Shown here: piece after piece, positions 7,771 to 35,879 of the stretch
Layout of the letters: every line of letters starts with the position of its first letter
Position numbering within the stretch: position 1 is the first letter of the stretch
Notes under the pieces: model-generated
What the model saw: the letters and a program-made list of their open reading frames with translations, nothing else
What the model was told of the DNA's origin: nothing
The model's database searches: none
Source of the DNA: a virus
Virus record (IMG/VR): IMGVR_UViG_3300043436_000718
Coordinates: 1 to 36,423 of that record
Strand: one strand, 5' to 3'
Length of the DNA: 36,423 nt
Program-made: the position numbers and the translations under genes

Positions 7771-8517
7771 TTATCCTCCGTATAAGGCGTAGGTGCCTGT
7801 GCCGTTAAAAGTGTGTCCAGCGTGGTTTAGAATTTGTAAAGAAGTAACCGCCGCTGCAGTTCTATAAATTCCACCAAATAAAGCAGTTGAATTTGAAGAA
7901 CTGTTATCCGTAAAACCGCCATAAGAAACTATAGAAGTAAATCCAGATTGCTTGCAATTTGTTAAAATTACATAAAAGAAATTTGCACCACCTGTACTTG
8001 AAATATAACTTCCTGAAGTTAAACTAAATTGAGTTGCATTTGTTAAATTGCTATTATTACCTTTGAGTAAGCCGTATTGGTCATAAGTTCCAGCAGATGA
8101 ACTATTTACTCTTAACCACATATCACAATTTCCTGTTGCAGTTAAGCCCGATAACCTTAAAATTAAAGTATCTTGTGTAAGACTTGAAAGCGTAAGACCT
8201 GTTCCAGTATTAAGTGAACCACTTGCAATAGTTGAAAGGGTTAATGCACCACCTGCTTGAGCCCACTTCAATCCAGTAGCAGTACTAGAGTCAGCAGTAA
8301 GGACTGTATCGTTAGCACCTACAGCAAGACGAGCAACAGTATCTGCTGCAGTAGCAGCAATGATGTCACCCTTAGCGTCTACAAGAGTAGGGTTAATGGC
8401 TGTAGCCTGTGTGATGTAGTCAGGGTGTCCGTGTGTACCAGTACCGATTGGGTACCACACATTGTCTGTAGCATCCCAGGCATAGCCTGGTCTAGGGGTA
8501 TTGCTGACAACAGCCAT
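7771..8517 (-). CDS. Tail fibre/receptor-binding protein, short (248 aa)
   Basis: It opens with MAVVSNTPRPGYAWDATDNV. At about 41-86 lies INPTLVDAKGDIIAATAADT...TGLKWA, a repeat unit widespread in phage tail fibres, followed by a Ser/Thr/Gly/Asn-rich beta region as in distal receptor-binding parts. Its ATG overlaps the stop of the HNH gene (CTAATGGCT), so it looks as if it once followed the 44-aa gene directly. Confidence 0.75.
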   Translation of the reverse strand: MAVVSNTPRPGYAWDATDNVWYPIGTGTHGHPDYITQATAINPTLVDAKGDIIAATAADTVARLAVGANDTVLTADSSTATGLKWAQAGGALTLSTIASGSLNTGTGLTLSSLTQDTLILRLSGLTATGNCDMWLRVNSSSAGTYDQYGLLKGNNSNLTNATQFSLTSGSYISSTGGANFFYVILTNCKQSGFTSIVSYGGFTDNSSSNSTALFGGIYRTAAAVTSLQILNHAGHTFNGTGTYALYGG

Positions 8518-9104
8518 TAGATTTTCTCCTTGATTTTCATATTATGTTTCCTTACATAGTCTAAGGCTGATTGAATCAGCGACTCGTTATCTTTTAAATG
8601 ACCTAATGCAAAGTTGCAATTGTTACATAGCAACCCTCTAACACATTTACCACAACTATCTTTACCTGCACAACATTTCCTGTCGTGGTCAACAGAAAGA
8701 TTATTCTTTAGTTCGCTTTGGTCAGTTAAGCAAATAGCACATTTATTATTTTGTTTTTCAAGAATTTTTGCATAGTCATCAAGATTAATTTTATACTGTC
8801 TTTTTAATCTTGAATTTCTATGAGATATTTTATGACCTATTGTAGGTCTAGCATCCCAACAGGGCTTACAGTATTCAGCCCTAGGTTCGCTAGTCTTGCC
8901 ACCACAAGCAATGCACTTTGCATCACCATTAGTATTGACTAAGTTAATGTAGCAATCTCTGCATAAGCCAGTTTTCTTTTTAGAACGTTTATCCATTTTA
9001 TTACCACATACACAAGTCCAGCGTTTAGTAACGTTAGCCATATGACATTCTTTGCACTTCTTAGCCCTACTACTTAAGACTGAACCACATTGACATTTAT
9101 CCAT
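8517..9104 (-). CDS. HNH homing-type endonuclease (Endonuclease VII fold) with N-terminal zinc fingers
   Basis: The 195-aa protein begins with several CxxC pairs (C4/C6, C17/C20, C31/C33, C48/C51, C64/C67, C79/C82), a zinc-binding DNA-recognition region. The C-terminal catalytic domain has CAIC (122-125), VDHD (138-141), CGKC (151-154) and CNNCNFALGHLKDN (160-173), the Endonuclease VII-type HNH pattern. It lies between fibre genes, does not serve virion assembly, and its composition is more AT-rich than its neighbours. A free-standing homing endonuclease spreading into fibre loci is the simplest reading. Confidence 0.88.
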   Translation of the reverse strand: MDKCQCGSVLSSRAKKCKECHMANVTKRWTCVCGNKMDKRSKKKTGLCRDCYINLVNTNGDAKCIACGGKTSEPRAEYCKPCWDARPTIGHKISHRNSRLKRQYKINLDDYAKILEKQNNKCAICLTDQSELKNNLSVDHDRKCCAGKDSCGKCVRGLLCNNCNFALGHLKDNESLIQSALDYVRKHNMKIKEKI

Positions 9105-16618: not shown

Positions 16619-17572
16619 TTAAGCGATTGATGAACCAGACTCAATGCGGTATAGTGCTTCTTCACGGTAACGTGCAAAGCCTAGAACGCCGTACCAACCC
16701 ATTGGGCGGTGACGCATCAACTTGTCCACTACTGGACCGATGACTACGTGTGGTTCTTCAGCAACGGCTTCTGCCATTGCTTGCTGTCCTGCGAGGATTG
16801 TGCGGTACACCTTTGCAGATGAAGCACCGTCTGTTGCAGAGTAAAGACGTGGAGACTCTACGAAGTATGCACCTTCGTATGTTCCGATTTCTCCTGCCCA
16901 GATACGGTCTTGTGCAGAACCGTATTGGTTAGGAAGCAACCAACCTGCTGAGCCTGTTTCGGCGCGAAGGTCGTGTGAAACTTCTGGGTGGATACCAGCC
17001 CAGTAGAGTGAACCCTTGCGGGCAGTTGTCTTGTTAGCACGCAACTTTGCAACAGCCTTGCGGATGTTTGCAGAAGAGAGTGTTGCAGCAGCAGTAACTG
17101 TTGCTGTTGATGTTGCAGTTGAACCTGAGTAGATTACGTTTGAACCACCGCGAAGAGTTGTCATCGCGACTGAATCAATAGAATCTGCAAGGTTGAATGC
17201 AATGATGTTAGCGATTGCTGGGTCTACATCAGCGAGGCTGAAGAGTTCCAACGCACGTGTCACCAACACTGAGTTACCATACTCGTTAAGAGTAATAGTT
17301 ACAGATGTTGGTGTAGACATTGCTACTGCATCTGGGTCAGTGTCTTCTGTGAGAGCAGTTGTGGCTGCTGAAAGGTCAACGTAGCGTTGTAGAACAACTG
17401 TTGAACCAGGGATTGATTGGTTTGTTGGGCGCTTATCTGCGACAGAACGAATTAGGGGTTCTGAACGGAGGGCAAACTCCAGAAGACGGTCATACGCCTT
17501 CTGAACTAAACCAGCACCACCAGCGGTACCTCCAAGAGAGGAGGAGCCTGTTGATACGTAGGCGTTAGCCAT
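16619..17572 (-). CDS. Major capsid protein (HK97-like fold, N4-gp56/P22-like)
   Basis: The 317-aa protein lies between a scaffold-like gene and small head genes. TTALTEDTDPDAVAMSTPTS, SVTITLNEYGNSVLVTRALE and WAGIHPEVSHDLRAETG resemble the N4-gp56 group of capsid proteins; the end GVLGFARYREEALYRIESGS is also typical. It has the best ribosome site in the window, GGAGGTGACATATG, fitting the most abundant virion protein. No N-terminal delta-domain is obvious: the sequence begins directly with a Gly/Ser-rich arm, so processing by the peptidase, if any, would more likely concern the scaffold. Confidence 0.85.
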   Translation of the reverse strand: MANAYVSTGSSSLGGTAGGAGLVQKAYDRLLEFALRSEPLIRSVADKRPTNQSIPGSTVVLQRYVDLSAATTALTEDTDPDAVAMSTPTSVTITLNEYGNSVLVTRALELFSLADVDPAIANIIAFNLADSIDSVAMTTLRGGSNVIYSGSTATSTATVTAAATLSSANIRKAVAKLRANKTTARKGSLYWAGIHPEVSHDLRAETGSAGWLLPNQYGSAQDRIWAGEIGTYEGAYFVESPRLYSATDGASSAKVYRTILAGQQAMAEAVAEEPHVVIGPVVDKLMRHRPMGWYGVLGFARYREEALYRIESGSSIA

Positions 17573-17607: not shown

Positions 17608-18084
17608 TTATTGTGAGCGGAGGAGAGATAAGATTTCTTCTGCAGATTCTGCATTAGCCAATCTTTGCTCTAGGTTCTCTGCTCGGTCAGGTGTTGTTGC
17701 ACCCTGCGTTACTACATCCTGTTGGCGTAATGCCGCTAGGTCTGCAGTGTTTGCTACGGATGCGTCCTCTGCAGGAGTTAACCCAAACAAATCTCCGTTT
17801 TCATTAAGCCAGTTATTCACTGATTCTTCTGAAACATCGTCAATATCTTTTAGGATTAGTCTTACTGCTTTAGGATTTACACCCTTCTTTTCTAGGACTT
17901 CTTTGACTGTACGCTCACGCTGCGCCTTGGATAAACCCTCAAGTTGCTCAGTGAGTTCTTTAATACGCTTTTCATCAGAACGTTTGGCTTTGCGTAACTT
18001 TTTAAGTAAGTCACTGCCATCCATTTGTGATTCATCTTGTGTATCTAGTTCGTCTTCGTCTTCGTCCCAGTAGTTGTTGCTCAT
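17608..18084 (-). CDS. Capsid scaffold protein
   Basis: The 158-aa protein has a very acidic N-terminus (DEDEDELDTQDE), a charged coiled coil (about 25-60, LLKKLRKAKRSDEKRIKELT) and a helical C-terminus (NLEQRLANAESAEEILSLL), the usual make-up of scaffolds, directly upstream of the capsid gene. ATG 18084 is preferred; an in-frame ATG at 18093 is an alternative and sits closer to GAAGGG. It would guide shell assembly and then leave or be degraded, possibly by the peptidase at 26373-26915. Confidence 0.8.
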   Translation of the reverse strand: MSNNYWDEDEDELDTQDESQMDGSDLLKKLRKAKRSDEKRIKELTEQLEGLSKAQRERTVKEVLEKKGVNPKAVRLILKDIDDVSEESVNNWLNENGDLFGLTPAEDASVANTADLAALRQQDVVTQGATTPDRAENLEQRLANAESAEEILSLLRSQ

Positions 18085-18213
18085 AGCAACCATCCACCCT
18101 TCTATTCGTTGTAGTCGCAAGCCTCAGGTTCCAATCGGGGAATCGGTCTGGCTCTTGCTACCAGTCTTATACGCTGGCGGGGCTGGTGGGTCCGCTCAGG
18201 ATTTTTTATTTGT
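18085..18213 (-). promoter_or_regulatory. GC-rich leader upstream of scaffold and capsid genes
   Basis: This 129-base gap contains a block (about 18110-18195) much more GC-rich than the surroundings. On the minus strand one stem pairs GCAAG with CTTGC around an inner TTCC/GGAA hairpin, and another pairs ACCAG with CTGGT. CCTGAG occurs directly repeated. A leader controlling capsid synthesis or a small RNA is possible. A frame crosses it but has no sensible start or family. Confidence 0.35.
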
Positions 18214-19743
18214 TTATTGCATTCCGCGAACTTGAGAAGCAAATGATTTGCTTCCAATAGTTCCAGAGCGTGTAAGGAAGCGTGCTTCTTCTCTACGAGC
18301 AAGGTCTTCCAGTTTCTTAAGTTCTGCTGCACTCTGGTCAAACGTTGCAGAGATTGCTTGCTCTTGACTATATGCTTTTTCTGGCGCAATACCAGTTTCT
18401 ATAGAAGTCAACTTCTGCGCTTCAGGAAGAATGCGTGCTACTTTACCAAAGGTTCCCATAGATGTTCCATATGTCTGACCCTTAGATACAAGTTCTCCTG
18501 CTGCTTGTTCACCCAATGTAAGTCCTTGCATACCTGCTGCAGCCTGAACACCAGCAGTAGCAACAGTTCTTTCTAGTTGCTTAACACCTTCTGGTCCAGT
18601 AAGGATAGCCTTCGCAAGTGTTGCTCTATCTGCGAATGGTATTGCCTTGGCTACTTGAGCCTTCCATTGTGCTGGAGCATTATCAATTGCGTCAAATACA
18701 TTTGTAATAATATCTGTGCTTTCAGATACTGACTTGCCAGTAGCGAGAACATCAGCAATGAATGTTGAGTTTGCTAAATCACTAAGATTAGAACGATTAA
18801 GAATATCGGCAAGTTTTTCTTCTGACTTTACATACTCTGCAACTGTAGGAACTTCAACAATCTTTCCAGCAGCCTTGAGGTCTTCTAGTTTAAAGATGGC
18901 TGAAAAGCGATTGGTAAACTCTGATAGTGCTGGGTCGGTCCTTGCAGAGCGTAATGCTAAATTGATAGCCTCATCAATGGTTGAACCAGATTTCCAGAAA
19001 CCAGAAATGTATTTATACAAGTCAGCAACATAAGCCTTTGAGCCTTCTTTGTCACCCACAATAAGTTTAAATGTATTAATAAAAGCATCTTGAGCAAGCG
19101 TCTTTCCAGATGCGTTTGTTACAGCACCTGTAATACCACCTGTTGCTGGAGGATTAGCGCCACCTGTGGCACCTACATATTCACCAGACGCACTGTATTG
19201 TCCACCTTCTTCAGGTTGACCAGCAGAGTTATATCCTGCTGACTTTGCTGGAGTGTAAAGTGTTGACCACTCTCTAGCAAGACGTGCTTCAATTTCAGTT
19301 GTTGATAGACCAGATGCTAGGAGTTCTTGACGCTTCTTATCCTGAAGAATTTGCGCCATTCCTGCGGTATTGATAGTTCCATCTGCTTTAGTGACAGACT
19401 TATACTCTTCTGCATTAAGTTGTCCGCTTGTTGGGGTATCGTTAAAGTAACCCATAGCATTGATTCCGCCACGTGATGCAATGTATTCCTTGGTGTAACC
19501 AATCTTCATTGCTTCTACTTCTTTGGCAGCATTGCGCTCTGTACCAGTAATAGTAAGTCCACTGATAGGAGATACCATTCCTACCTTTGTAGCAGCAGGT
19601 GGCTTGGCGGTTCCTATATCTATTGCACCTTTATATGTAACACCGTTAACCGTAACATCTTTTCTAGTTGCACCAAAAAATGGGTCATTAGCAACAGGTG
19701 CTTTGGGTGTTGGTGCTGTGTCTCTATCAAATGCGCCAGCCAT
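18214..19743 (-). CDS. 509-aa virion-region protein, unknown
   Basis: ATG 19743 (MAGAFDRDTAPTPKAP) overlaps the TAA of the 294-aa gene and is preferred over an in-frame ATG four codons upstream. The N-terminal third is low-complexity with Gly/Ala/Thr; the middle is helical (ADILNRSNLSDLANSTFIAD); the end is charged helical (AELKKLEDLARREEARFL). With the 294-aa and 1690-aa proteins it fills the interval between portal and scaffold, where podoviruses may encode internal ejection proteins. Assignment by place only. Confidence 0.6.
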   Translation of the reverse strand: MAGAFDRDTAPTPKAPVANDPFFGATRKDVTVNGVTYKGAIDIGTAKPPAATKVGMVSPISGLTITGTERNAAKEVEAMKIGYTKEYIASRGGINAMGYFNDTPTSGQLNAEEYKSVTKADGTINTAGMAQILQDKKRQELLASGLSTTEIEARLAREWSTLYTPAKSAGYNSAGQPEEGGQYSASGEYVGATGGANPPATGGITGAVTNASGKTLAQDAFINTFKLIVGDKEGSKAYVADLYKYISGFWKSGSTIDEAINLALRSARTDPALSEFTNRFSAIFKLEDLKAAGKIVEVPTVAEYVKSEEKLADILNRSNLSDLANSTFIADVLATGKSVSESTDIITNVFDAIDNAPAQWKAQVAKAIPFADRATLAKAILTGPEGVKQLERTVATAGVQAAAGMQGLTLGEQAAGELVSKGQTYGTSMGTFGKVARILPEAQKLTSIETGIAPEKAYSQEQAISATFDQSAAELKKLEDLARREEARFLTRSGTIGSKSFASQVRGMQ

Positions 19744-20627
19744 TAGATACCCCATCCTAGTGCTCGTGCAAATGACGTAGCACTATCACGACCATTGTCA
19801 ATTGCTTTTAAAGTTCCATCAAATCTTTTATCATTCATTGCTGCAAGAGATGCCTGACCTACAGTTGCAGGTGGCATCTTGCCAACTACTCCATCTGGAC
19901 GAAGTAACTTGTCAACAAATGGGTCATTTAAATCAACTGAATCAGGTTCAACTTCCCAAGCAGCAGCAATAGCATTAATGATTGGTGAATATAGTTGGCG
20001 CGTTGTGGCACCAGGTGTTGAGTCAAATCGTGCTGCTAGTTGTGGATATTCAATCTTTGCTTTTTGTACAAGTTGAGCCTTGTACTCTTCTAGAGTAAGG
20101 TCTCCCATAGCAATCTTCTTTGCTGCAGCCTGTACTTCAGCCTCTGAAACACCACTTAGGTTAAACGCTTTAATTGCAGAGCGAGCCTCTGTAAGGGCAA
20201 CAAGACTCTTAGCACCTAGATTCTTTACATCTGCAAAATTAACTTTGCCCCAGATGTAGTCCTTAGTGAACTGCTTAGGGTCAAAAAAGTTGGGAAAACT
20301 TGTAGAGATAATACTTTGAATAGTCTTCTGTGCATCAGCCGCTGTAGCACCTGGCTTAATCTGGCTGCGAGCAGCCTTGACAACTGTTTCAAGTTGAGCA
20401 TTGGCAGCCTTATTATAAGCAGCAACAAATGATGCTAACTCAGCCTGGGAGAATTTACCAGTGTATTGAATGTCACGAGCAATAGCATCAAGTAATTGTC
20501 TACCAGAAGTCGTTGTAAGTTTAATGGCTTGCTTTGTGGTTGTATCGCTATCCCCGCCACCGCCACCCATTACTGCAATTGCAGCATTGATTGCTGCAGC
20601 AACTTCTGGACTTAGTTCTTTTGTCAT
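19743..20627 (-). CDS. 294-aa helical virion-region protein
   Basis: A Gly-rich stretch (MGGGGGDSD) near the N-terminus precedes a largely helical Ala/Lys-rich body and the end FARALGWGI. Its ATG overlaps the stop of the 1690-aa gene by one base and its stop overlaps the next start, so the three form one coupled block. Candidate internal or ejection protein; no family recognised. Confidence 0.6.
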   Translation of the reverse strand: MTKELSPEVAAAINAAIAVMGGGGGDSDTTTKQAIKLTTTSGRQLLDAIARDIQYTGKFSQAELASFVAAYNKAANAQLETVVKAARSQIKPGATAADAQKTIQSIISTSFPNFFDPKQFTKDYIWGKVNFADVKNLGAKSLVALTEARSAIKAFNLSGVSEAEVQAAAKKIAMGDLTLEEYKAQLVQKAKIEYPQLAARFDSTPGATTRQLYSPIINAIAAAWEVEPDSVDLNDPFVDKLLRPDGVVGKMPPATVGQASLAAMNDKRFDGTLKAIDNGRDSATSFARALGWGI

Positions 20628-23600
20628 TACTTAGAACCTCTCTGAGTAGCATCCTTCAATGTGTCTTCTTCAAAGTATCGTTTGATGATGTCCTGAAGTC
20701 GTGGATGCCAAGTTGGTGTAAATGTATCTAATGTCGCGTTGTATGCTTTTTTCAGTCTAGACTTTCTAGGGTCATTGGCTGGCAAATCTTGATAGACGCT
20801 AACAATTGTATTTCTAATTGCTAGATAGTCACTGACATCAGACCAGAATTTAGTCTTGCCATACTTATTCATAAATGTCTCATCAGAGGCAACTTTATTT
20901 AAACCATAGGCATAGTTAAAAGACTTATCTCCGCGCTCAGGGTCGTTGTACTCTGTCCACCAAACTTCAGATTCATCTCTAAATAATGTCTCTGCTATTT
21001 TTTTACGAGCAGCAAGTAGTTCTGGGTGAGAACGAAGAGACTTACCATCACTTTGTTGTGCCTTTTGTTCCAAAATATCAGTAACCTGATTGTACATTTC
21101 CCAGACTCTGTTTACATTTCTAAGACTTTCTTCCTTTTTGACGCTAATTGCAACTTTGTTTAAAAGTTCTCCGCCAGGAAGTTTAGTATCTGGGTCTTGA
21201 AGTTTTCTATACACGCTAAGGTTAAATTCCTTAGGATTCTGGTCTAGGTCAGCAGTAAGTAATCCAACAAGAGCAGGGTCAACTGTTGCTAGTTCTGCTG
21301 CTAGTTTTTGATTCTCAACAAAGACTCTATTGTAAGCCTTAGATGTTGGTTGAATATAAGCATTAGATGCTGAGCCTTTAAATGTAATTCTATCTAATGG
21401 AAAGTCTGTTCCAACCTTAGATAGGAATTCTGCTCCTGCAAGTTCTTTAGCCTGTGTAATATCAATTCCTTGAGATTGATACTTATTAACCAAAAGACCA
21501 TAAGCATCTTCATATAGTTTCATAGGGCGTGTGTCAGCCTTGGCAGGTATACCAAATAGAGAGTTGAATGACCAGCCAAACTTAACCAAGAAGTTCTCTT
21601 GTGTAGCCTTTCTGATTGCAGCATCGCCAGGATACTTAAGAATCTTCATCTCATCAAGAGTGCGATAGTAATTGTGCACATCTTTATAAGAGTCTAAGAA
21701 GTCTTTCTTACCCTCTGGACCATTTGCATAGTTCCATAAATCATTTGCCCAGCGTGGTACTACAGCCATACTAAGAGATGTCTGTGGTCCGTATGGGAAG
21801 ATAACATCATAGTTAGCACCAAGGTATTCTTTCATTAAATCTTCAGCATCTGGTTGCCATTGGAATACCTTTGCAGTTGCAATGCTTGCATACAAAGATG
21901 GAGTTGGGTAGTTAAGTAAAAATCCAATGCTACGAGCATTTAGACGAATACCTTTACCGCCAAAGAATCCCATAGTATCTGTTGCAGGAACAACAAGATG
22001 TGTAGCCTTTAGTGGGTCATCGGTTGGGATTCCATATTCATCTACACCAAATGACCTAAAGGCTGCTTGGTAATTGTAGAGGAACTGGCTTACACGCTCT
22101 GGACTCTTAAGTGCAAAACGACCATAGCGATAGAAAGCATTAAGAGATGCAGTAGGAAACGCTGTTGCTAGACGAGCAGCATACAGTGCTTTGTTCTGAC
22201 GGCGAATTGTGTAGAATGTCTTTTCGTTTGCTTCAAGCGCCTCACGGCGAGCAGCAGAGCGAATAGAATTTATCTTATCAATATCTACTGTTCCATCTGC
22301 CTTTGTAAACTTAAAGCCTTGCTCAGCAAGAGTGTTTACCTTTTGAGCCAAAGAGTCAGCAAAAAATCTATCAGCAGAAGCCCAACGAATTGGGTTTTCT
22401 GGAGCAGTTAGTTTACTAAATATCCAGTTAGCACCCTTGTTGATTGTCTGTTCTATCTGACCTAGTGTACGTGCACCGAATTCAGATGCTGTGTGTACAT
22501 TGAAATCAAGCGGATGAATAGGACTTAAGTCGCGAGACTTAGGTGATAAAATCTTTTGAAGTTCAATAGATGTAACGTCTTTAGTCAATGCTAATGAACG
22601 AGCCTCAGCATCTGGCAGATAGCGATTAACTATACCAATTCTGTCACGAACTAGATTAGGAATGTTGCCCTCTGTTACGACACCAAATTGATTTAGGTAA
22701 GATGTACCAGCGTCACTGCGTGCCCATTGAATAATCTTTTCTTCTGGTAATCCCTCAAGTGCTTGCTTGATAAGTGGGTCATTGCGTAGAGAACGGTTGA
22801 CATAATAAGCCAACTCTTCAAAATAATTAGGGTCATTAATATAAGTAACAGTTGATGGTCCTCTACGAAGAACCATACCTTGACGTACACCAATAGTTCT
22901 TTCACCTAGGTATGTGGCAGCAACAGTACGTGAGTTACCAAACTCGCTCCTAAATGCAGCACCCATAAGGTTCTCATCAAAGAGTGACTTAATTGGTACC
23001 CATTGACCAGCAATCATACGATACTGTTCTGGCTTGCCATAGTAGCGTGCTTTGTACTTAGCATCCTTACCGAATACATCTGCTTGCTTTACGCGAGCCT
23101 CTCCAAGTGACTTAAGGATGTCGTCAATTACTTGATATTGAAGAGCAATATTCTTATTGGCTGCCAGTATTTCCGCTGCATTTGGAGCAAGCGTATTAAT
23201 CGCTCCTTTTGCTGCGCCAATTGCAGATTTAGCATTAGCAATATCTGAGCCAAACTTTGCCTTAGATGCTGCTGAAGTTTCATTTTCAATAAATGCAATT
23301 CTTCGCTCTAGTCCAGCAATAGTTGGGACTTGAGACATAGTTCCAAAAGGACTGATAGCGTCGCGAAGTTCTAACTCAATATCATCTACAAGTTTTTGTG
23401 TCTTCTTGAGTTGGTCAAGAACAATTGCTTTATTCTCTTGAATAACTTTCGGGCTAAGTTTAATTGTATTTACTTCTGGCTGTAGAAACAATGAAACCTC
23501 TGCTGTTAGTGCATCTAGTTGTGCCACTGCAGCATCTAATTCATTACTGAGGTCTCCTACAGCCTTATTGACGGCACGATATTCTTTGCCTTTGTAAACC

Positions 23601-25699
23601 CTAGACACTTTCCCCATTACACGATTCTTGTTATTAAGCAAGAAGTTCTTGGTCATTGTTGGAACACCTTGAATAACAATGTCCATTCCGTGAGCAAGGG
23701 TTGCGCTTAAGGCTGGCTCAAATAATGAGTTCTTTGGGATGTATGATGGTCTTGCCAATACATCCAGTGTCCAGTACTTGTTGAATGTTTCATAAAAAGC
23801 ATTAATTGTATCAGTTGTTCTAATTACACCAAGTTCAGGACCTGGCTTCTTAAGTGCAAGAATCAATTCTTTTTCAATAAAATTCCAAGGAGCCATACGA
23901 TATGACTCAATCAACTGGCTTTGTGTCTGAGCATCAGTAATTACGCGAGCACCAGTGGCATCCATAGCGTAACCAGTTCTTGCAATTGAGTTAGTAGAGT
24001 TAAGAACCTTATTCTTAATTTCTTGAGTAAAGTTTTTAATCTTTGCTATATCATAGAATCCATTTGAGAACGCAGTAACAAGACCAATCTGGTCATCTAG
24101 TTCTTCAAGTACATTCTTGCGCTGAATGTTTGTCTCAGCATTAGCAAGTTTTTGCTTGACTGAATTGCGAAATTCTGCAGCAGTAATTTTTACTGTAGGA
24201 CTAATTGAGACCATATTGGAACCATTTTTAAATAGGTCTATATCGTCAAAGAAAGCATCTATTTCTTTAAATGAGTCAAATGGTCGTGAACCAGAAAAAG
24301 TAACAAAGCCAAGAGGTTTCTCTGAACCAGTAAATCTAACTATTCTTGTAATAGGACCATTGAGGCTGCCACCTAAAATGCGCTCTTCAATTCTACCGAG
24401 TTTAGAAAAGTCACGTGTTACCGCAGCAGCACGAAGTTTACCAAGACGCTCACGTCCAGCAACGTACGCAGCCTTACCGATAATTGGCTCAGCAGGAATA
24501 TAATCCTTACCCTGCATCAAAGGAGTCTTTGTCTGTGGGTCAAGTAATGAGTCACGGATAAAGCGATACTCAGGTACACGATTGATTGCATCATCAAATG
24601 CTGAGTTCAATCGCTCCCAAGAAATTTCATCAAACTCTGGAAGTTTACCTTCTTCAATAGCCTTTGTCTTGAATACAGAGTTCATATCTGCAATTTCATA
24701 CAAGTCTGCAGGTGCATTCTTTGAAAGTCTATCAAGCGCTGGGAAATATCCCTTATCGGCAAGCAAAAGGTCTCTAATAGTATTTGGGTCAGTAGCACGT
24801 GATATAGGTCCAATAAGACCGCCATTGTTACTATACTTTTGAACCAGTTGACTTACTTCATTAATGTCGGTTGTAGATGCTAAGCGTTGGACATCTGAGC
24901 CAGCAGTAGTTAGGCGACCTGATGCACCGTCACTATTCTTAAATGTAACACCATCATTGATGTCCATTTCAAATTGTGATGACGCCTTGTTCTTTGTGGT
25001 TAATCCAACACCACGAGCAGCAAGATTACCAGCCTTCGCCATTGCACCGAAAGCACCGCCGATAGCAATATTAGATGCTGTAAAGTCAAGAATACCAGTA
25101 AAGTATCTACCTACAGTATTGTCAACAAACGCCCTCTGGATGTCATTATCATTCCATAGGTCAACTTCATCAAGGTCAATACCGCCAGCATTAAATGTTA
25201 TGTCTGCAGCATATTTAATTGGAGTTAGGTCTGACTTAGTAAAAGCCTTACCCATTGAAACTTTTTCAGAGCGGTTATACGCACTGACAATATCTTTGAC
25301 CTGAAAGCCTTTTTCAAATTCATCGCTTGCATATAGAGGTGATTCTATGTCGGTAATTAAACCAAGAGTTGATACTGGACGAGTAATATATGGCGAGATG
25401 ACTTCATCGTGAAGTTTAACTCCAGCCTTAAGAACTATGTCATTACTTGTTGCTTGATTCTTTATAGAGTATTTAAGGTTATCTTTGATAACTTGCTGCG
25501 CTTGCTCCTCAACACCCAACTGGCGGAGCAGCGGAGTCGCTCCAATTTCAACACCAGCGTTTGTGGCAACATTAGAAATAAATTGAGATGGAGACCCTAG
25601 ATTACCAGTGAAGGCATCTTTCCAGTAATCTACTGCGCTACCAAAAGTTTTGCCAACTGGTTTGGCGATATTGTCTAGGAAATCATTCCATAATGACAT
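20627..25699 (-). CDS. Giant 1690-aa virion protein, ejection-protein candidate
   Basis: This is the largest gene, with a clear AAGGAGATAGAATG start. The N-terminus (MSLWNDFLDNIAKPVGKTFG) is amphipathic; a hydrophobic Ala/Gly stretch near 210-225 (ASNIAIGGAFGAMAKAG) could enter a membrane; long helical/coiled-coil sequence spans about 690-860; the rest mixes helical and beta segments with no catalytic motif I can name. It is too far from tail genes to be a typical tape measure and lacks such repeats. Giant proteins near the portal in podoviruses are often packed in the head and injected, but this is inference. Confidence 0.7.
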   Translation of the reverse strand: MSLWNDFLDNIAKPVGKTFGSAVDYWKDAFTGNLGSPSQFISNVATNAGVEIGATPLLRQLGVEEQAQQVIKDNLKYSIKNQATSNDIVLKAGVKLHDEVISPYITRPVSTLGLITDIESPLYASDEFEKGFQVKDIVSAYNRSEKVSMGKAFTKSDLTPIKYAADITFNAGGIDLDEVDLWNDNDIQRAFVDNTVGRYFTGILDFTASNIAIGGAFGAMAKAGNLAARGVGLTTKNKASSQFEMDINDGVTFKNSDGASGRLTTAGSDVQRLASTTDINEVSQLVQKYSNNGGLIGPISRATDPNTIRDLLLADKGYFPALDRLSKNAPADLYEIADMNSVFKTKAIEEGKLPEFDEISWERLNSAFDDAINRVPEYRFIRDSLLDPQTKTPLMQGKDYIPAEPIIGKAAYVAGRERLGKLRAAAVTRDFSKLGRIEERILGGSLNGPITRIVRFTGSEKPLGFVTFSGSRPFDSFKEIDAFFDDIDLFKNGSNMVSISPTVKITAAEFRNSVKQKLANAETNIQRKNVLEELDDQIGLVTAFSNGFYDIAKIKNFTQEIKNKVLNSTNSIARTGYAMDATGARVITDAQTQSQLIESYRMAPWNFIEKELILALKKPGPELGVIRTTDTINAFYETFNKYWTLDVLARPSYIPKNSLFEPALSATLAHGMDIVIQGVPTMTKNFLLNNKNRVMGKVSRVYKGKEYRAVNKAVGDLSNELDAAVAQLDALTAEVSLFLQPEVNTIKLSPKVIQENKAIVLDQLKKTQKLVDDIELELRDAISPFGTMSQVPTIAGLERRIAFIENETSAASKAKFGSDIANAKSAIGAAKGAINTLAPNAAEILAANKNIALQYQVIDDILKSLGEARVKQADVFGKDAKYKARYYGKPEQYRMIAGQWVPIKSLFDENLMGAAFRSEFGNSRTVAATYLGERTIGVRQGMVLRRGPSTVTYINDPNYFEELAYYVNRSLRNDPLIKQALEGLPEEKIIQWARSDAGTSYLNQFGVVTEGNIPNLVRDRIGIVNRYLPDAEARSLALTKDVTSIELQKILSPKSRDLSPIHPLDFNVHTASEFGARTLGQIEQTINKGANWIFSKLTAPENPIRWASADRFFADSLAQKVNTLAEQGFKFTKADGTVDIDKINSIRSAARREALEANEKTFYTIRRQNKALYAARLATAFPTASLNAFYRYGRFALKSPERVSQFLYNYQAAFRSFGVDEYGIPTDDPLKATHLVVPATDTMGFFGGKGIRLNARSIGFLLNYPTPSLYASIATAKVFQWQPDAEDLMKEYLGANYDVIFPYGPQTSLSMAVVPRWANDLWNYANGPEGKKDFLDSYKDVHNYYRTLDEMKILKYPGDAAIRKATQENFLVKFGWSFNSLFGIPAKADTRPMKLYEDAYGLLVNKYQSQGIDITQAKELAGAEFLSKVGTDFPLDRITFKGSASNAYIQPTSKAYNRVFVENQKLAAELATVDPALVGLLTADLDQNPKEFNLSVYRKLQDPDTKLPGGELLNKVAISVKKEESLRNVNRVWEMYNQVTDILEQKAQQSDGKSLRSHPELLAARKKIAETLFRDESEVWWTEYNDPERGDKSFNYAYGLNKVASDETFMNKYGKTKFWSDVSDYLAIRNTIVSVYQDLPANDPRKSRLKKAYNATLDTFTPTWHPRLQDIIKRYFEEDTLKDATQRGSK

Positions 25700-25708
25700 T
25701 CTATCTCC

Positions 25709-25906
25709 TTAAACTCCGAATTGGTTTTTGGTCTTACCACCACGAGGCATTTCCCCAGTAAGCATTTCAATAAAAGAATCTCTGTCATCAACTGAATCCC
25801 AAGGAATAGTTGCAAGAGTCAAAGCAATTGCTGCATTCTCATAACCTAAAGAGTTTGCAAACTTGTCAATGTTGTCGTAAATCCCACCTGGAATCCAAGA
25901 GTTCAT
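25709..25906 (-). CDS. 65-aa protein, unknown
   Basis: It reads MNSWIPGGIYDNIDKFANSL and has the helical core ENAAIALTLATIPWDSVDDR. The ATG overlaps the preceding stop (ATGA), coupling it to the 153-aa gene. Probably a small head-assembly or virion protein. Confidence 0.65.
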   Translation of the reverse strand: MNSWIPGGIYDNIDKFANSLGYENAAIALTLATIPWDSVDDRDSFIEMLTGEMPRGGKTKNQFGV

Positions 25907-26364
25907 TGCATCTTCTTTAACAAGTAAGATAAAAATTGTTTGTATGAATCAGGAGCATCAACGCTGCGTCCCGCTTGCATCATTGCTGGCAAATACTTTT
26001 CAACAATAGCCTTATTCTCAATTGGGCGTTGGTCTTGTCCAATAGATGGAGGAAGGACTTCTGAACCAGGACCTGCACCAAAGTCAACACCTGCTGATAT
26101 TGGTTCTGACGGACGCATTGTTTCATCTAGAAGTGTTGGCATATTCATACCAATGCCACCCATTGATGGAGTTGCTGCTGCTGCCATAGGTGCTGATAAT
26201 TGTTGTTGCATAGTTTCTTGTCCTTGACCGTATGGAAGTCCTGAAATATATTGTGCTGGTTGCTTGCCTGATTGACCATTGCCACCAGTAGCAGAAATAT
26301 TGGCTGGGTTATTCTGTGGTGCTGTAGGGCGGTCTCCGCCACTTCTTCCCTTTACTCCAGCCAC
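25903..26364 (-). CDS. 153-aa Gly/Pro/Gln-rich protein after the peptidase
   Basis: It begins MAGVKGRSGGDRPTAPQNNP, a basic Gly-rich opening like that of many small terminase subunits, then a disordered Gln/Met/Gly region and one C-terminal helical domain (AIVEKYLPAMMQAGRS...LLKKMQ). It has no HTH, so it is probably not the small terminase. A portal-associated or peptidase-processed factor is a reasonable guess. Confidence 0.6.
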   Translation of the reverse strand: MAGVKGRSGGDRPTAPQNNPANISATGGNGQSGKQPAQYISGLPYGQGQETMQQQLSAPMAAAATPSMGGIGMNMPTLLDETMRPSEPISAGVDFGAGPGSEVLPPSIGQDQRPIENKAIVEKYLPAMMQAGRSVDAPDSYKQFLSYLLKKMQ

Positions 26365-26372
26365 AGTGCCTC

Positions 26373-26915
26373 CTACTTAATATGTTTAAATTGAGTTTTT
26401 GATAGATATGGTTTTGCTGTAAATGCTGTTAACTTACTTGCAATTTCCATTGCCTCATAAGCATCAGCACCAGCGTGTAGTGCGCCTAGCGCATACGCTG
26501 CTCCTGAACCTGCTGCGTAAACATTAGTGTCAGATTTAGATACTGAACACTCTTGGTCTACATCAAATATTTCGCCACCGACAGCAATAATAAACTGAAA
26601 GCGCATTTCTTTTGTATCTTCATCAAAGTTGTAGCCATTCTCAGATAAGCATTTACGTAGAGATGGCATAGCCTTGGCAATCATAAAGTGATATAGGTCT
26701 TTATAATCAGCCTTAGAAGGAACTGGTGGTTCCCATATATGTTGTGCTACATCACAAGGTAGAACTTCTCCAGAACCTGCGACTAAAAAGTGTCCCCGTT
26801 CAGCAATCTTCTTAACATCAGGGTGATTGTAAATTCGCCCACTGTCATCAGTTGTCTGACTGTCAGCAACAATTACTGCACTGTCTTTATATTCCAAGCC
26901 GATAATTGTTGTCAT
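26373..26915 (-). CDS. Proteasome/HslV-like Ntn-hydrolase (threonine peptidase) in the capsid-protease position
   Basis: The 180-aa protein starts MTTIIGLEYKDSAVIVADSQ. Removing Met1 exposes a Thr, as in HslV and proteasome beta subunits. Asp18 (Asp17 of the mature chain) sits in the conserved ADSQTT; VKK (34-36) matches the catalytic lysine region; VAGSGEV matches the Gly-rich lysine/serine pocket loop; and GSGAAYALGALHAGADAYEAM equals the GSGxxYA loop and the DA(x)EA helix near the C-terminus. Length equals bacterial HslV. It lies directly after the portal, where tailed phages normally encode the prohead protease, and no other protease gene is seen there. The start carries AAGTAGGGGACAATG. 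Fold assignment is fairly sure; the assembly role is inferred. Confidence 0.85.
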   Translation of the reverse strand: MTTIIGLEYKDSAVIVADSQTTDDSGRIYNHPDVKKIAERGHFLVAGSGEVLPCDVAQHIWEPPVPSKADYKDLYHFMIAKAMPSLRKCLSENGYNFDEDTKEMRFQFIIAVGGEIFDVDQECSVSKSDTNVYAAGSGAAYALGALHAGADAYEAMEIASKLTAFTAKPYLSKTQFKHIK

Positions 26916-26929
26916 TGTCCCCTACTTAA

Positions 26930-28711
26930 TTATAACCTTGCTGTTGTTGATGCTCTTCCGCTTGTTCTTCCAGATGCACTTAGGCTTGCTAGAATCGTTT
27001 GAATATCTGGTGTTGCTTCTTCCTGTGGAGCCATTGGTGCTTCTTCTGGAAGAGCGCCTCCTGCTGGAACGCCAGTGGGAGCAGGGGACGGTTGCTCAAC
27101 CTGAGTCGGTGCCCCAGCAGGAGGAACTGGTTGCTGCGGAGTGAATGTGGCTTCAATCGCGTCTTCTAGTGCTTGACCCTTTTGACGAGCCTTGATAACC
27201 GCAGCAATCTTATTTACCATATCTGATGGGTCTTGTCCCTGAGTTGCCATCGCAGGAATTGCTTGAGCCATAGCGGTAATGCCTCCAAGGAGTGCAGTAC
27301 GCATATTCTCAATTTCAATCTTTTCAAGTTCTTGTGTAACGTTTACAGTGAATGGAAGTTCACGCATTGCCATATCCTTAGAGATAAGACCGCCACCCAA
27401 TGCCTGAAGCATAAAGATAAGTCCCTGTGCTGGATTTAATCCAGCCAACATTCCATAACGAACATCTGCAGAATAATCTTGCTTGATGTCCTTTGTTGGT
27501 TTGTATGTAATTTCATAAGGTGAACCAGAGTCAACGCCACGAATTGTCTTCTCTTCTGGGAAAATCATTTCGTCTACTTCAAAGCAGATTGAAATTACAT
27601 CACGAAGAGTTGCAGCAAAGATGGCTTGTGCTGATTTAACTTGTGTATCAAAGGCTCCCATAAGAGCCTGAACGCCTTGTCCAGTGACGATAGAAGCATC
27701 AATGTTTCCTGTACGTCCTTCAGGATAACGTGTGCCTACACGAAGTTCTTGATTAAGTTGGGCTTGTTCAGTGAACGCACCTTGTGGAAGTGATAGTTCT
27801 ACACGGCGCACACCTGCTGGATTTGAAGTACGGATAACCGCATCTCCACCCAACTGGAGTTCTTGTACATCTTGTGGAAGTACAATAGGAGCCTGTACAG
27901 ATTTCTCTGCAGCCTCCATAGCAAGCAAAGCAAAACGATTGCGAAGCAATTGAATGCCAAGTACATCGTCAAATTGTCCACGTAGTTCACCATCAATAGA
28001 TGGCTTACGTGCAACAACAACCATCATTTTACCAAGAGGATTGTTAGCACGTGAAAGAACTAAGTCGCCCTTTGATGGGATGTAAATAACTGACTGGTCT
28101 TTGTCGTAATAGCGAATCATCTCAACCTGGTGATTGAGGTCTTGCTTGTAGCCGTAGCCGCCTAGCAATTCTCTTTCATACTCAGGAAATTGTGAAACAA
28201 GTTCGCCTAGTGTCAGTGTGTATCGTTTTGCAAATGCAACACAGCGTCCATAGCGGTCAAATTCTGGGTAAGCCCCAATAGGATTTTCTATGCGGATGCG
28301 TGGCAGTTTGCTTTCTTCGTCTAATTCAATAATGAAAGGGACGAAACCATATGTTATGTACCAGTCGGCTCCTGAGTACATTTGGACCGCGAGGTCAGAA
28401 TGCTGAAAATAATTAGAAGCAATGCGAGTTCTCTTGTCCGCGAAACTACGAGCACGGTCATTAACCGCATTCGCTGCCGAGCAGTTGACGGCTGGTAGTG
28501 GTGCCATAACTTCGGATAAGTCGCGGGCAACAATGTCAATAAAATTCGCAACGACATTTGCGTCTACTCCATCTGGAAAGAAGTCAGGATAGACTTCGGC
28601 AATCTTTCCTTTACGGACAGCAAGAACGTCAAGGTTGCGAGAATCTCTCTCGTTATTGCGATAGCGCAGAGCAAGAACTCGTGCTGCAATCTGTTCCATT
28701 GTTAAAGCCAT
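26930..28711 (-). CDS. Portal protein
   Basis: The 593-aa reading from ATG 28711 (MALTMEQIAARVLALRYRNN) is preferred: ATAGGAC lies upstream and it starts 7 bases after the terminase stop, whereas a longer frame overlaps the terminase. The order terminase-portal, the size, the helical N-terminus, the central beta region (GFVPFIIELDEES, RIENPIGAYPEFDRYG), the long helix region and the Pro/Ala/Gln-rich C-terminal tail fit a portal. It forms the dodecameric DNA entry ring at one capsid vertex. Confidence 0.85.
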   Translation of the reverse strand: MALTMEQIAARVLALRYRNNERDSRNLDVLAVRKGKIAEVYPDFFPDGVDANVVANFIDIVARDLSEVMAPLPAVNCSAANAVNDRARSFADKRTRIASNYFQHSDLAVQMYSGADWYITYGFVPFIIELDEESKLPRIRIENPIGAYPEFDRYGRCVAFAKRYTLTLGELVSQFPEYERELLGGYGYKQDLNHQVEMIRYYDKDQSVIYIPSKGDLVLSRANNPLGKMMVVVARKPSIDGELRGQFDDVLGIQLLRNRFALLAMEAAEKSVQAPIVLPQDVQELQLGGDAVIRTSNPAGVRRVELSLPQGAFTEQAQLNQELRVGTRYPEGRTGNIDASIVTGQGVQALMGAFDTQVKSAQAIFAATLRDVISICFEVDEMIFPEEKTIRGVDSGSPYEITYKPTKDIKQDYSADVRYGMLAGLNPAQGLIFMLQALGGGLISKDMAMRELPFTVNVTQELEKIEIENMRTALLGGITAMAQAIPAMATQGQDPSDMVNKIAAVIKARQKGQALEDAIEATFTPQQPVPPAGAPTQVEQPSPAPTGVPAGGALPEEAPMAPQEEATPDIQTILASLSASGRTSGRASTTARL

Positions 28712-28718
28712 TGTTGTC

Positions 28719-30587
28719 CTATCCGTATTGTTCAGACCATTGGGAGGCGAATGCCTCATCTAAATTAAGTGACCCTCTGTTTGACTTTTGTGCACGAGTA
28801 GCCCAACGGTTCTGTGCATATTGACCTACGCGACTTGATGTTTGCATTAACTCACGGATGCGGATGACCGCAAACCAGAGAGCCATTACGCAGTCGGTAG
28901 GGTTTCTAGTATCAGGCTTCCACGTAATAAGTTGCTGTACTAGCGCCTTAAGACCTTCAGAGCCTTCATTGCTTGGTAATTCAATTAAGTTGTTATCTTG
29001 GAAGCGACCATCACGGGTGTTTCCAAATAGCGTAGCCATAGATGCCACACCAAAAGAAGTGTCCCACTTGTTCTTGCCAGTGAAGTGTGAGTTCAACTGG
29101 CAGCCATATGAGGCTAGAAAGTTTCGCAAGTTATCATCTAAGGCGTAAGCCTTCTGATGAGCGTTGATTTCAATTCTTAGTTCTTGTGGGCGGTACTTCT
29201 CAACCCACTCTTCAATTAAAGTCTGAATCTTGGCTGGCGTAGGCTCAGTCATATTGATGCAGTCAAGAATATAAATCTTGCCATCACTACGATTGTATGT
29301 TGCTACTACTGCAGCCGTTGCACCTGCCATAGCAGGGTCAAGACCGATAATGGTATAACCAGATTCTATATGTCTTGGATGACCTGGAGTTCCTTCTTTG
29401 AGAGGTCCACGCTTACGCATTCCGTTGACTGAACCTGCGACACAAGTTGGTGAGAAGATAGAGTCTTCTTGCACGTCTTCTTGTTGGTAGACCATAGCCC
29501 AGACAGATGGCGCAACTTCAGAGCGTCTCTTAAATAAAGAGGGTCCATCCCATTTCGGATAAAGTCCATCAGGTCCTGCCTCGTCAATTTCATTTTCTTG
29601 TAAATTAGATTTAGCCCACAACGTCTTCCAGTTTTCAGGCTTCTCATCAAATTCAAGAACGGCTGGCATAGCACAGTAAGTGAAAGGGGTCTTGCCACCT
29701 GACCATTGTCCTGGGTCACGAATCATTTTATAAAGGTCAATGGGCGCGACACGGGTTCCTACGATAAGCAGTTTTCCGTGCCGCCCCAAACGTGTGATAA
29801 CTTCCTTCTGAAGCCATTCAATTTGCTTCTCCCACTCGTGGGCATTTGAGTTCATCACAACATCGTCTAGGATGATTAGGTCAGCGCGAGCACCGTAAAT
29901 CTGTGAACCAAATCCAAGAGCCTGAACCGTTGGGTCCTTTTCGCCTGAATCACGTCCCGTTCCTAGGTAAATCATATCTGCTGACCATTGGGTTGCATCA
30001 GCCTTATATCCGCCATTAGGACCGAAGGCGGTCTGTAGTTTGATATAGGCGGGGTGGCTTAGGCGGGTCTTAATCGCACCTAAGAATTTTCTAGCCATAC
30101 CCTGAGTCTTAGAGACAATGATGACTCTGGCATTCGGGTTGGTCACTATGTTGTACAAAACGTAGTTGGTTGTAATCGTAGTTGACTTGGCGTGCTCAGG
30201 GGGTACGTTGATAAGTACACGCTTCGGGTCGCCAGGCTCATAGGTAATCCCAGGTGGCAACCAAGATGGCTCACGACCTTCAATCAGGTCTAGCCAGTCA
30301 AGTTGGTGTTCAAAGAGTTTGGCGTCTAGGAACTGCTCACAGAAGTCGGGGAAGGATATGTTCTTCAAATCCCCAAGGTCTGCAATTACACCCTTACCCG
30401 CTAGGCGGGCTTTGTCGGCTCGTTCCTTAAAGGCTGGGTCATTCATAGACCATTGCCTAAAGGTCACATCGTTTCTACCAACGGATGCCATAGCAGCCGT
30501 AATAGTCGAACCCTGACCTAATTGGATAAGAACTTTCTCCTGGGCTTCGCCCTTTGGGATGTTCTGAATTCCAGGCTTACGTCCCAT
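28719..30587 (-). CDS. Terminase large subunit with N-terminal HTH-like region
   Basis: The 622-aa packaging motor has an ATPase part with the Walker A-like NVPPEHAKST (127-136), Walker B LIILDD (237-242) and coupling motif VGTR (276-279), then an RNase H-like nuclease with D417 (GLDPAMAG), E473 (RIEINAH) and D565 (NPTD). Residues ~14-60 resemble a helix-turn-helix as in small terminase subunits (ITAAMASVGRNDVTFRQWSM). No separate small-subunit gene is seen, so the DNA-recognition function may be fused. It is the first gene of the late operon. Confidence 0.93.
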   Translation of the reverse strand: MGRKPGIQNIPKGEAQEKVLIQLGQGSTITAAMASVGRNDVTFRQWSMNDPAFKERADKARLAGKGVIADLGDLKNISFPDFCEQFLDAKLFEHQLDWLDLIEGREPSWLPPGITYEPGDPKRVLINVPPEHAKSTTITTNYVLYNIVTNPNARVIIVSKTQGMARKFLGAIKTRLSHPAYIKLQTAFGPNGGYKADATQWSADMIYLGTGRDSGEKDPTVQALGFGSQIYGARADLIILDDVVMNSNAHEWEKQIEWLQKEVITRLGRHGKLLIVGTRVAPIDLYKMIRDPGQWSGGKTPFTYCAMPAVLEFDEKPENWKTLWAKSNLQENEIDEAGPDGLYPKWDGPSLFKRRSEVAPSVWAMVYQQEDVQEDSIFSPTCVAGSVNGMRKRGPLKEGTPGHPRHIESGYTIIGLDPAMAGATAAVVATYNRSDGKIYILDCINMTEPTPAKIQTLIEEWVEKYRPQELRIEINAHQKAYALDDNLRNFLASYGCQLNSHFTGKNKWDTSFGVASMATLFGNTRDGRFQDNNLIELPSNEGSEGLKALVQQLITWKPDTRNPTDCVMALWFAVIRIRELMQTSSRVGQYAQNRWATRAQKSNRGSLNLDEAFASQWSEQYG

Positions 30588-31250: not shown

Positions 31251-31314
31251 GTGCAAATGAGAGTACCCTCACCTTGTGAGCGTAAAACTTGCGCTCAAGA
31301 CAGGAGAAGAAGAA

Positions 31315-31995
31315 ATGAACAAGACAGCAACAATCAAGAAGACAGGTGCAGAAGACATCTTCCAATCACCCGCCAAGAGTGAAAACCTTTCTTTCATTCT
31401 TAAGGCGTTAGAAGATGCACACGACCTAATCCAAAAGAAGACAGGTGCACCCCGCGCCACGATTTCAATCGGTCGCTCAGATAAAGTTCACGGACACTTC
31501 ACACCTTGGACACCTTGGCAGAATCAAGAGGAACAATTTCACGAGATTTTCTTAAGTGCCTCATCATTTCCACGAGGTGCCCGCGCCACGCTTGGCACTC
31601 TTCTCCACGAGATGGCGCACTCATTAGATACAAAAGAGGAACGCCAAGGAACGAGCGGAGACGGCTACCACAACAAGACTTTTAAGAAGACCGCAGAAGA
31701 GGTTTTTGGATTAGAAATCAAGCAAGTTAAGGGCAAGGGATGGACGGACACAAATGTGCCAGATTCTTGCGTGGAGATGTGGCAAGAGGCACACGACCTA
31801 ATCGAGGAGGCTTTAAAACTCACCGCCTCCAGTGACCTCTCAATCAAGCCAAAAGGACGCAACAAAAACAACAAGGTTGCGGTGTGCAATTGTGGAGAGA
31901 AGATTCGCCTAAGTCTTAAGACATACAACAACTGCAAGCCGTTTTGCTTAGAATGTCAGAGCGCGTTTATCCTAGAAGAGGAGGATGGCGAATAA
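31315..31995 (+). CDS. SprT-like zinc metalloprotease domain protein
   Basis: The 226-aa protein starts at ATG 31315 after CTCAAGACAGGAGAAGAAGAA; a GTG frame 13 codons earlier would put that ribosome site inside the gene. LLHEMAHSLD gives the HExxH zinc site (H98, E99, H102) and GDGYHNKTF the third ligand (H119), as in SprT/Spartan proteins. A C-terminal zinc ribbon follows (C191, C193, C207, C211, C214). The eukaryotic relative Spartan degrades DNA-crosslinked proteins; the phage role is unknown. It is the first gene of the early plus-strand operon. Confidence 0.88.
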   Translation: MNKTATIKKTGAEDIFQSPAKSENLSFILKALEDAHDLIQKKTGAPRATISIGRSDKVHGHFTPWTPWQNQEEQFHEIFLSASSFPRGARATLGTLLHEMAHSLDTKEERQGTSGDGYHNKTFKKTAEEVFGLEIKQVKGKGWTDTNVPDSCVEMWQEAHDLIEEALKLTASSDLSIKPKGRNKNNKVAVCNCGEKIRLSLKTYNNCKPFCLECQSAFILEEEDGE

Positions 31996-35301: not shown

Positions 35302-35530
35302 GAAACAATTTCAGATAAGTTACAAGGTTGAAGGTGTAAGGGTAGTCAATGTCTGGTTGCCAGAGGGCACGGAGTTGCCCCATATATGGAATGCGATGAC
35401 GCCCGAACACCAAGATGAATGGTTGTATGCACACGAAGGTAGAAGTACAGTTGCCTACGAAGACATCCACTATTCACAAGCCGAAGCCGTACTAGAAGTA
35501 CGCCGTCTTAAGTCGGTAAGTAATGGGTGA
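35294..35530 (+). CDS. 78-aa early protein, unknown
   Basis: A GTG start at 35294 overlapping the previous stop is favoured, giving MTEKQFQISYKVEGVRVVNV; a TTG two codons upstream is possible, and the far longer upstream frame only reads through the zinc-ribbon gene. AGAGGGAC is the ribosome site. It contains AMTPEHQDEWLYAHEG and a C-terminal helix. Confidence 0.6.
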   Translation: MTEKQFQISYKVEGVRVVNVWLPEGTELPHIWNAMTPEHQDEWLYAHEGRSTVAYEDIHYSQAEAVLEVRRLKSVSNG

Positions 35531-35879
35531 TTACATCATAAGAGACTGGCACAACGAAGCACTATGCCAACGACATCCTGACCCTGATATGTGGCACTAC
35601 GAGAACTCAATGTTCCAAGATGAACAACAACTTGAAGTCTTAAGAAGTGTTCAAGCAATTGAAGTATGCCACGATTGTCCTGTTAGAACTGAGTGCTTAG
35701 CACAAGGAATGGAAGATGAGAACATCGTCTACAACGGTGGCAGTGGCAGTATTTGGGGTGGATTATTGAACTCTGAGCGGTATACCCTGAAAACTGGGCG
35801 TGTCGGGAGCAGGAGATTGCAGTCTGAAGAGCGTCATAGAACTGCTGTAAGGAGAAAAATTGGTAGACTTAAGGTATGA
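35523..35879 (+). CDS. WhiB-family iron-sulfur transcription regulator
   Basis: The 118-aa protein has four cysteines in WhiB order: C15 (EALCQRHPDPDMW), then C49-x2-C52-x5-C58 (CHDCPVRTEC), followed by GGSGSIWGG, the G(I/V)WGG turn, and a basic C-terminus (KTGRVGSRRLQ) for DNA contact. WhiB proteins bind a 4Fe-4S cluster and the RNA polymerase sigma factor. In phages they may redirect or silence host transcription. It is the strongest host clue in the window. Confidence 0.93.
   Translation: MGDYIIRDWHNEALCQRHPDPDMWHYENSMFQDEQQLEVLRSVQAIEVCHDCPVRTECLAQGMEDENIVYNGGSGSIWGGLLNSERYTLKTGRVGSRRLQSEERHRTAVRRKIGRLKV

Follow-up and report, generated by a model that had tools for sequence, protein, structure and literature searches.

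A proteasome-like threonine peptidase encoded behind the portal gene of a phage clade is probably an exchangeable accessory enzyme

The stretch of DNA analyzed here (the window), a 36.4-kb IMG/VR virus record of 36,423 nucleotides, encodes directly behind its portal gene a proteasome-like threonine peptidase that, judging from its sequence, would be catalytically competent and of the bacterial and phage "group I" kind, on the side of BPH, HslV, and AAH. Near-identical phages carry at this place a very different peptidase or an unrelated small gene; the gene is therefore probably an exchangeable, accessory single-gene cassette and not a tool for maturing the shell. Together with the enzyme class, the reading that we hold with slightly better than even confidence is that of an accessory peptidase that would act independently of an ATPase, be made with the late genes, and probably be directed at the host. 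The kind of enzyme is already known: phage proteasome homologues have been published (Fuchs 2021, PMC8665760), and phrog_1040 genes occur in many phages. What appears new, on the other hand, is the constant locus at which alleles are exchanged; the post-portal slot, the exchange of alleles, and the replacement by an ORF of ~80 aa were not found in the part of the published literature that was covered. No function is known for the widespread phage proteasome homologues, and when Fuchs, Alva, and Lupas surveyed the phage homologues PPH and AAH in 2021, they reported neither a function nor a telling gene context (PMC8665760). In the present clade, by contrast, which numbers hundreds of metagenomic members, the gene keeps to one place and is exchanged with the precision of an ORF. 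Such ORF-precise exchange is strong evidence against a function in capsid maturation and suggests that selection is host-specific. A first-pass annotation of the window had proposed an Ntn threonine peptidase serving as the prohead protease; the enzyme class stands, as does the lack of a detectable HslU/Clp ATPase, whereas the role in capsid maturation is contradicted by natural comparisons among relatives.

The peptidase ORF (26373-26915, minus strand) is real, encoding 180 aa from an ATG start at 26915. Its translation bears out the Thr directly after Met1 and the four landmarks noted earlier, with Thr as residue 2 and ADSQTT, VKK, AGSG, and GSGAAYAL following in this order along the chain. 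The protein passes the curated Pfam cut-off for PF00227 (28.1 bits against 22.4) and matches phrog_1040, "peptidase HslV family," with an E-value of 5.6e-29. Thr1, Asp17, Lys33, and the oxyanion Gly47 of the proteasome (PMC8665760) correspond to T2, D18, K36, and G49 of the peptidase, which also has the motif G136-S137-G138. The earlier assignment of Thr1, Asp17, and the Lys region is upheld by the relatives of the post-portal family, in which T2, D18, K36, and G49 are invariant (210/210), so that no loss of Thr, Asp, or Lys is seen, and T2, D18, and K36 are kept in 7/7 distant homologues as well; the catalytic Lys is K36, the adjacent K35 being variable. The gene is under purifying selection, with a median dN/dS of 0.09-0.12 across three allele classes. 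Structure prediction and a fold search returned the HslV/20S beta type of fold that had been anticipated: the AlphaFold2 model (pLDDT 92.9, pTM 0.88) is a proteasome-beta-like sandwich with helices H1-H4 all present, it has 972 PDB matches at E <= 0.001, and the best Foldseek match in the PDB is the beta-proteobacterial proteasome homologue BPH (5ovs, E 4.5e-11), followed by HslV and 20S beta. A profile built from 26 relatives likewise places BPH first (5ovu, full length, E 2.8e-13) and HslV next.

BPH (PDB 5ovs, 5ovt, and 5ovu) is thus the closest relative by both profile and fold. Like the peptidase, it has no propeptide and no known unfoldase, and the acidic stretch at residues 93-105 of the peptidase, after helix H2, recalls the acidic pore loop of BPH (PMC8665760); the two differ in that identity is ~20-24% at a TM-score of ~0.7 and that the peptidase is phage-encoded. 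HslV (ClpQ) shares the fold, the Thr1/Asp17/Lys33 set, the GSG motif, and the short subunit, but the peptidase scores only 17.5-20.2 bits against NCBIfam equivalog cut-offs of 137-158. The HslU/Clp-type ATPase domain PF07724 had no match in 10 records including the window, in line with the earlier remark that no HslU-like ATPase is visible, and a true HslV working with HslU was rejected on these cut-offs together with the missing PF07724. A weak PF00004 match in relatives belongs to a RecA/DnaB-like ATPase of ~270 aa which occurs in phages with and without the peptidase and is therefore not its partner; this AAA candidate was rejected. PPH and AAH (PMC8665760) are, like the peptidase, phage-encoded group I proteins with no known function and no ATPase, but PPH has ~140 aa and lacks helix H2, whereas the peptidase has 180 aa and a helix at residues 74-92 in the H2 place. 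That the protein is not a protease, being instead an Ntn amidohydrolase or a protein ligase like archaeal connectase, seems very unlikely: connectase does show that ligases exist among proteasome homologues (PMC8665760), and of the equivalents of Ser129 and Asp166, neither of which is strictly conserved, the latter would fit such a change of activity, but the AlphaFold2 model has helices at the H1-H2 places, unlike connectase, and both profile and fold lie closest to BPH and HslV.

Members of phrog_1040 are found in T5-like, Asteriusvirus, Vibrio, and Aeromonas phages, and a search with the member from Psychrobacter phage D'Alembert returned 204 phage records. In the annotated examples examined (AAS21, D'Alembert, and DSL-LC01), the phrog_1040 gene is found at a distance from the head genes; the neighbor of the homologue is thymidylate synthase in both AAS21 and Pumpernickel. 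AAH turned up in no actinobacteria-specific phage in the 2021 survey, which also reported no telling gene context (PMC8665760), in contrast to the fixed post-portal locus in actinobacterial-looking phages described here. Gene 135 of the cultured actinobacterial Microbacterium phage Pumpernickel (NC_073468, 88181-88540), next to ThyX, is a relative of the peptidase despite that survey result. No relatives were found in bacterial genome contigs, with either the portal or the peptidase alignment as query, and no phage of the window's clade carrying the peptidase was found in culture.

The late genes of the window lie on the minus strand in the order terminase, portal, peptidase, proteins of 153, 65, 1690, 294, and 513 aa, a scaffold-like protein of 170 aa, the major capsid protein (MCP) of 317 aa, and then adaptor and tail genes, and in the relatives, too, the peptidase gene sits in the head operon between portal and scaffold/MCP. 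The large terminase subunit (28719-30587, minus strand; phrog_38, 2.2e-68) is followed by the portal (26930-28759, minus strand; phrog_104, 3.2e-28), the conserved upstream border of the slot. The peptidase had been described as lying directly after the portal, and only 14 nt (26916-26929, minus strand), holding a Shine-Dalgarno-like AGGGG, separate the portal stop from its start; the gap is 13-20 nt in nearly all relatives of the spacing table. The downstream border is a low-complexity protein of 153 aa (25903-26364, minus strand; phrog_8200), kept with or without the peptidase. The nearest named kin of the portal are Streptomyces podoviruses (44% identity), and the window also encodes a WhiB-family regulator (35523-35879, plus strand; PF02467, 9.6e-11), so that the host is probably an actinobacterium.

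The placement behind the portal is nearly constant across the relatives, most of which are metagenome contigs not proven to be complete, with near-copies and overlapping contigs included in the counts. Two scans with peptidase queries, limited to the best 80 loci each so that their frequencies are not population frequencies, gave a homologous portal in 160/160 loci and direct adjacency in 79/80 and 79/80; the portal frame found at the two exceptions (L068 and L244) ends early. Portal-query searches were added to avoid the bias of starting from the peptidase. Among the best loci for the portal of L219, 56 carry the peptidase, in all 56 cases as the portal's direct neighbor, and a further 17, though they have room for it, lack it; among those for the portal of the window, 70 carry it, 68 of them adjoining the portal, and 6 do not. 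To the question whether homologues always follow the portal, the survey answers that nearly all of these relatives have the gene there, whereas the copies of AAS21, D'Alembert, and DSL-LC01 lie away from the head genes. At 23 portal loci of the window's clade that were read and have no peptidase, an unrelated ORF of ~80 aa occupies the slot, and none of the 202 peptidase carriers checked also has this ORF. This ORF has an acidic tail (MAARKKP...DDEDDD) and follows the portal in L301-L325, L362, L363, L367, L392, L398, and L399. A different ORF of 84-92 aa (..LITEWADYDGTRYLHTEVSEAMTPWNA..), with no family match, overlaps the peptidase stop in some carriers (L088, 20534-20785; L219, 6467-6742).

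Clustering at 50% identity divides the post-portal peptidases into four classes, and among 175 phages, portals more than 98% identical can be paired with peptidases only 31% identical. For example, the DNA of L246 and L269 agrees at 92-97% identity across ~18 kb and their portals are 99.3% identical, whereas their peptidases share 31% identity; the largest gap in their alignment downstream of the portal spans 8240-8772 of L246, where the peptidase ORF occupies 8232-8783, and the alignment has further gaps, of which the longest lies between the terminase and portal genes. In two other pairs, L228/L271 and L274/L237, similarity is interrupted at these two borders as well. In these pairs, the portals of which are 98-99% identical, the exchange breakpoints lie within ~10-15 bp of the ends of the peptidase ORF. 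On a tree of 130 portals, with the four peptidase classes, the small ORF, and the Streptomyces type as states, at least 21 state changes are needed against a least possible number of 5, and the presence or absence of the peptidase alone needs 3.

These comparisons bear directly on the proposal that the peptidase is the prohead protease, acting as a self-compartmentalized barrel in the procapsid that would cleave scaffold or capsid protein. The position directly behind the portal in almost all carriers and the invariant catalytic residues are what such a protease would show, and the claim that the operon has no protease of the S14 or S78 type is supported for S78, ClpP, and S49, none of which was found in 15 records. 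Carriers and non-carriers lack these three alike, however, so the peptidase is not singled out as their replacement. Phages that encode a separate scaffold, such as P22 and phi29, in many cases mature without a protease. The window has such an arrangement, with a likely scaffold gene of its own (17608-18120, minus strand; assigned by position and by weak matches to phrog_648 and PF14265) directly before an MCP that has no delta domain (16619-17572, minus strand; phrog_1357, 1.1e-80; PF13252), and the Dennebes gene at the position of this scaffold is annotated as a scaffolding protein. Three natural comparisons led us to reject the proposal. First, the Streptomyces podoviruses (Beephvirinae, including Immanuel3, Dennebes, and Abafar) share with the window the order of terminase, portal, capsid, and large-protein genes (TerL 46%, portal 44%, and MCP 53-55% identity, the N terminus of the window MCP coinciding with that of Immanuel3), and carry a scaffold gene of their own, but have no proteasome-like gene, their slot holding gp4-gp6, which are small hypotheticals; a peptidase match was found in 0/70 of their loci and in none of 14 whole records, the three of these phages searched for S78, ClpP, and S49 lack them as well, and Abafar, without the peptidase gene, makes podoviral virions (PMC11536984). 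Second, relatives of carriers with scaffold and capsid starts that are 95-97% identical carry no peptidase: G029, a near-complete 39.9-kb contig (not proven complete), has no copy, although its scaffold protein shares 95.3% identity with that of the carrier L199 and the DNA of scaffold and MCP gene start is 96.6% identical, and the MCP of L325, which has the small ORF, is 93.7% identical to that of the carrier L247. Third, alleles 31% identical have been swapped under unchanged portals (98-99% identical) and scaffolds. In addition, D'Alembert has its distant peptidase homologue alongside an annotated head maturation protease. A prohead protease is accordingly highly improbable.

The peptidase also lies at the border of a variable block running from the 153-aa to the 513-aa protein, which includes the 65-aa ORF (25709-25906, minus strand), where the variable part between slot and scaffold begins, a protein of 1690 aa (20627-25699, minus strand; phrog_10618) that is probably an internal or ejection protein, and proteins of 294 aa (19743-20627, minus strand; phrog_6654) and 513 aa (18214-19755, minus strand; phrog_8424). 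The whole block (18214-26364 in the window) is replaced wholesale between L199/L200 and L405 while portal, scaffold, and MCP stay the same. The position of the peptidase gene would suit an enzyme that is virion cargo or processes ejection proteins, acting on or with this block and working at entry, as would the ct2KA10 records, in which both peptidase and block have diverged. Yet the 1690-aa protein is wholly different among phages that share a peptidase; even where the peptidases are 93% identical, the block from the 153-aa to the 1690-aa protein can lack detectable similarity between carriers, and L246 and L269 have blocks 96.8% identical in DNA with different peptidases. The peptidase is therefore not matched to the ejection proteins; co-evolution of the two, at which the ct2KA10 records hinted, was rejected on the same grounds, and we regard a role at entry as very unlikely.

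The reading we prefer is that of an accessory, host-directed peptidase, the host-directed part being held at about even confidence. Removal of the initiator Met would expose Thr1, the subunits would probably assemble into a ring, either closed or partly closed, and this predicted ring would, with no need of an ATPase, cut proteins that are unfolded or flexible, much as BPH has been proposed to work without an unfoldase (PMC8665760). Because the slot is fixed between the portal gene and the 153-aa gene, production with the late genes is expected. The slot gene is replaced again and again by a far-diverged allele or by the ~80-aa gene against a constant background of portal, scaffold, and capsid genes, so that no virion protein is bound to it by descent; since allele exchange is typical of genes facing the host or its defenses, the target may be a host protein or a host-encoded anti-phage protein. 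On the other hand, the exchange may stem from frequent neutral recombination at conserved flanks, and head proteins with loose specificity can also be exchangeable. A generic enzyme of late proteostasis, in the form of an uncapped peptidase clearing unfolded virion proteins, spent scaffold, and peptides, helpful but neither required nor substrate-specific, would agree with the BPH-like character without unfoldase, with the acidic stretch, with the place among head genes, and with the tolerance of allele exchange. It is nonetheless unlikely, as it leaves the exchange of far-diverged alleles between near-identical phages unexplained and makes replacement by an ~80-aa protein without protease signature hard to see. 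A bolder form of the host-directed reading, possible but rather doubtful, is that the place behind the portal is a "weapon slot" for a single gene, in which each swapped peptidase allele or ~80-aa protein would destroy or block a different host or anti-phage protein; if this is true, a proteasome homologue would for the first time have a defined role in the conflict between phage and host. Since the matched phage pairs differ over many kilobases in little apart from the peptidase, they allow a direct test of its function.

Elsewhere, the window encodes a protein resembling SprT-like metalloproteases (31276-31995, plus strand), with an HExxH motif and a PF10263 match below the cut-off, and an Endonuclease VII-like gene (8517-9104, minus strand) between tail fiber genes.
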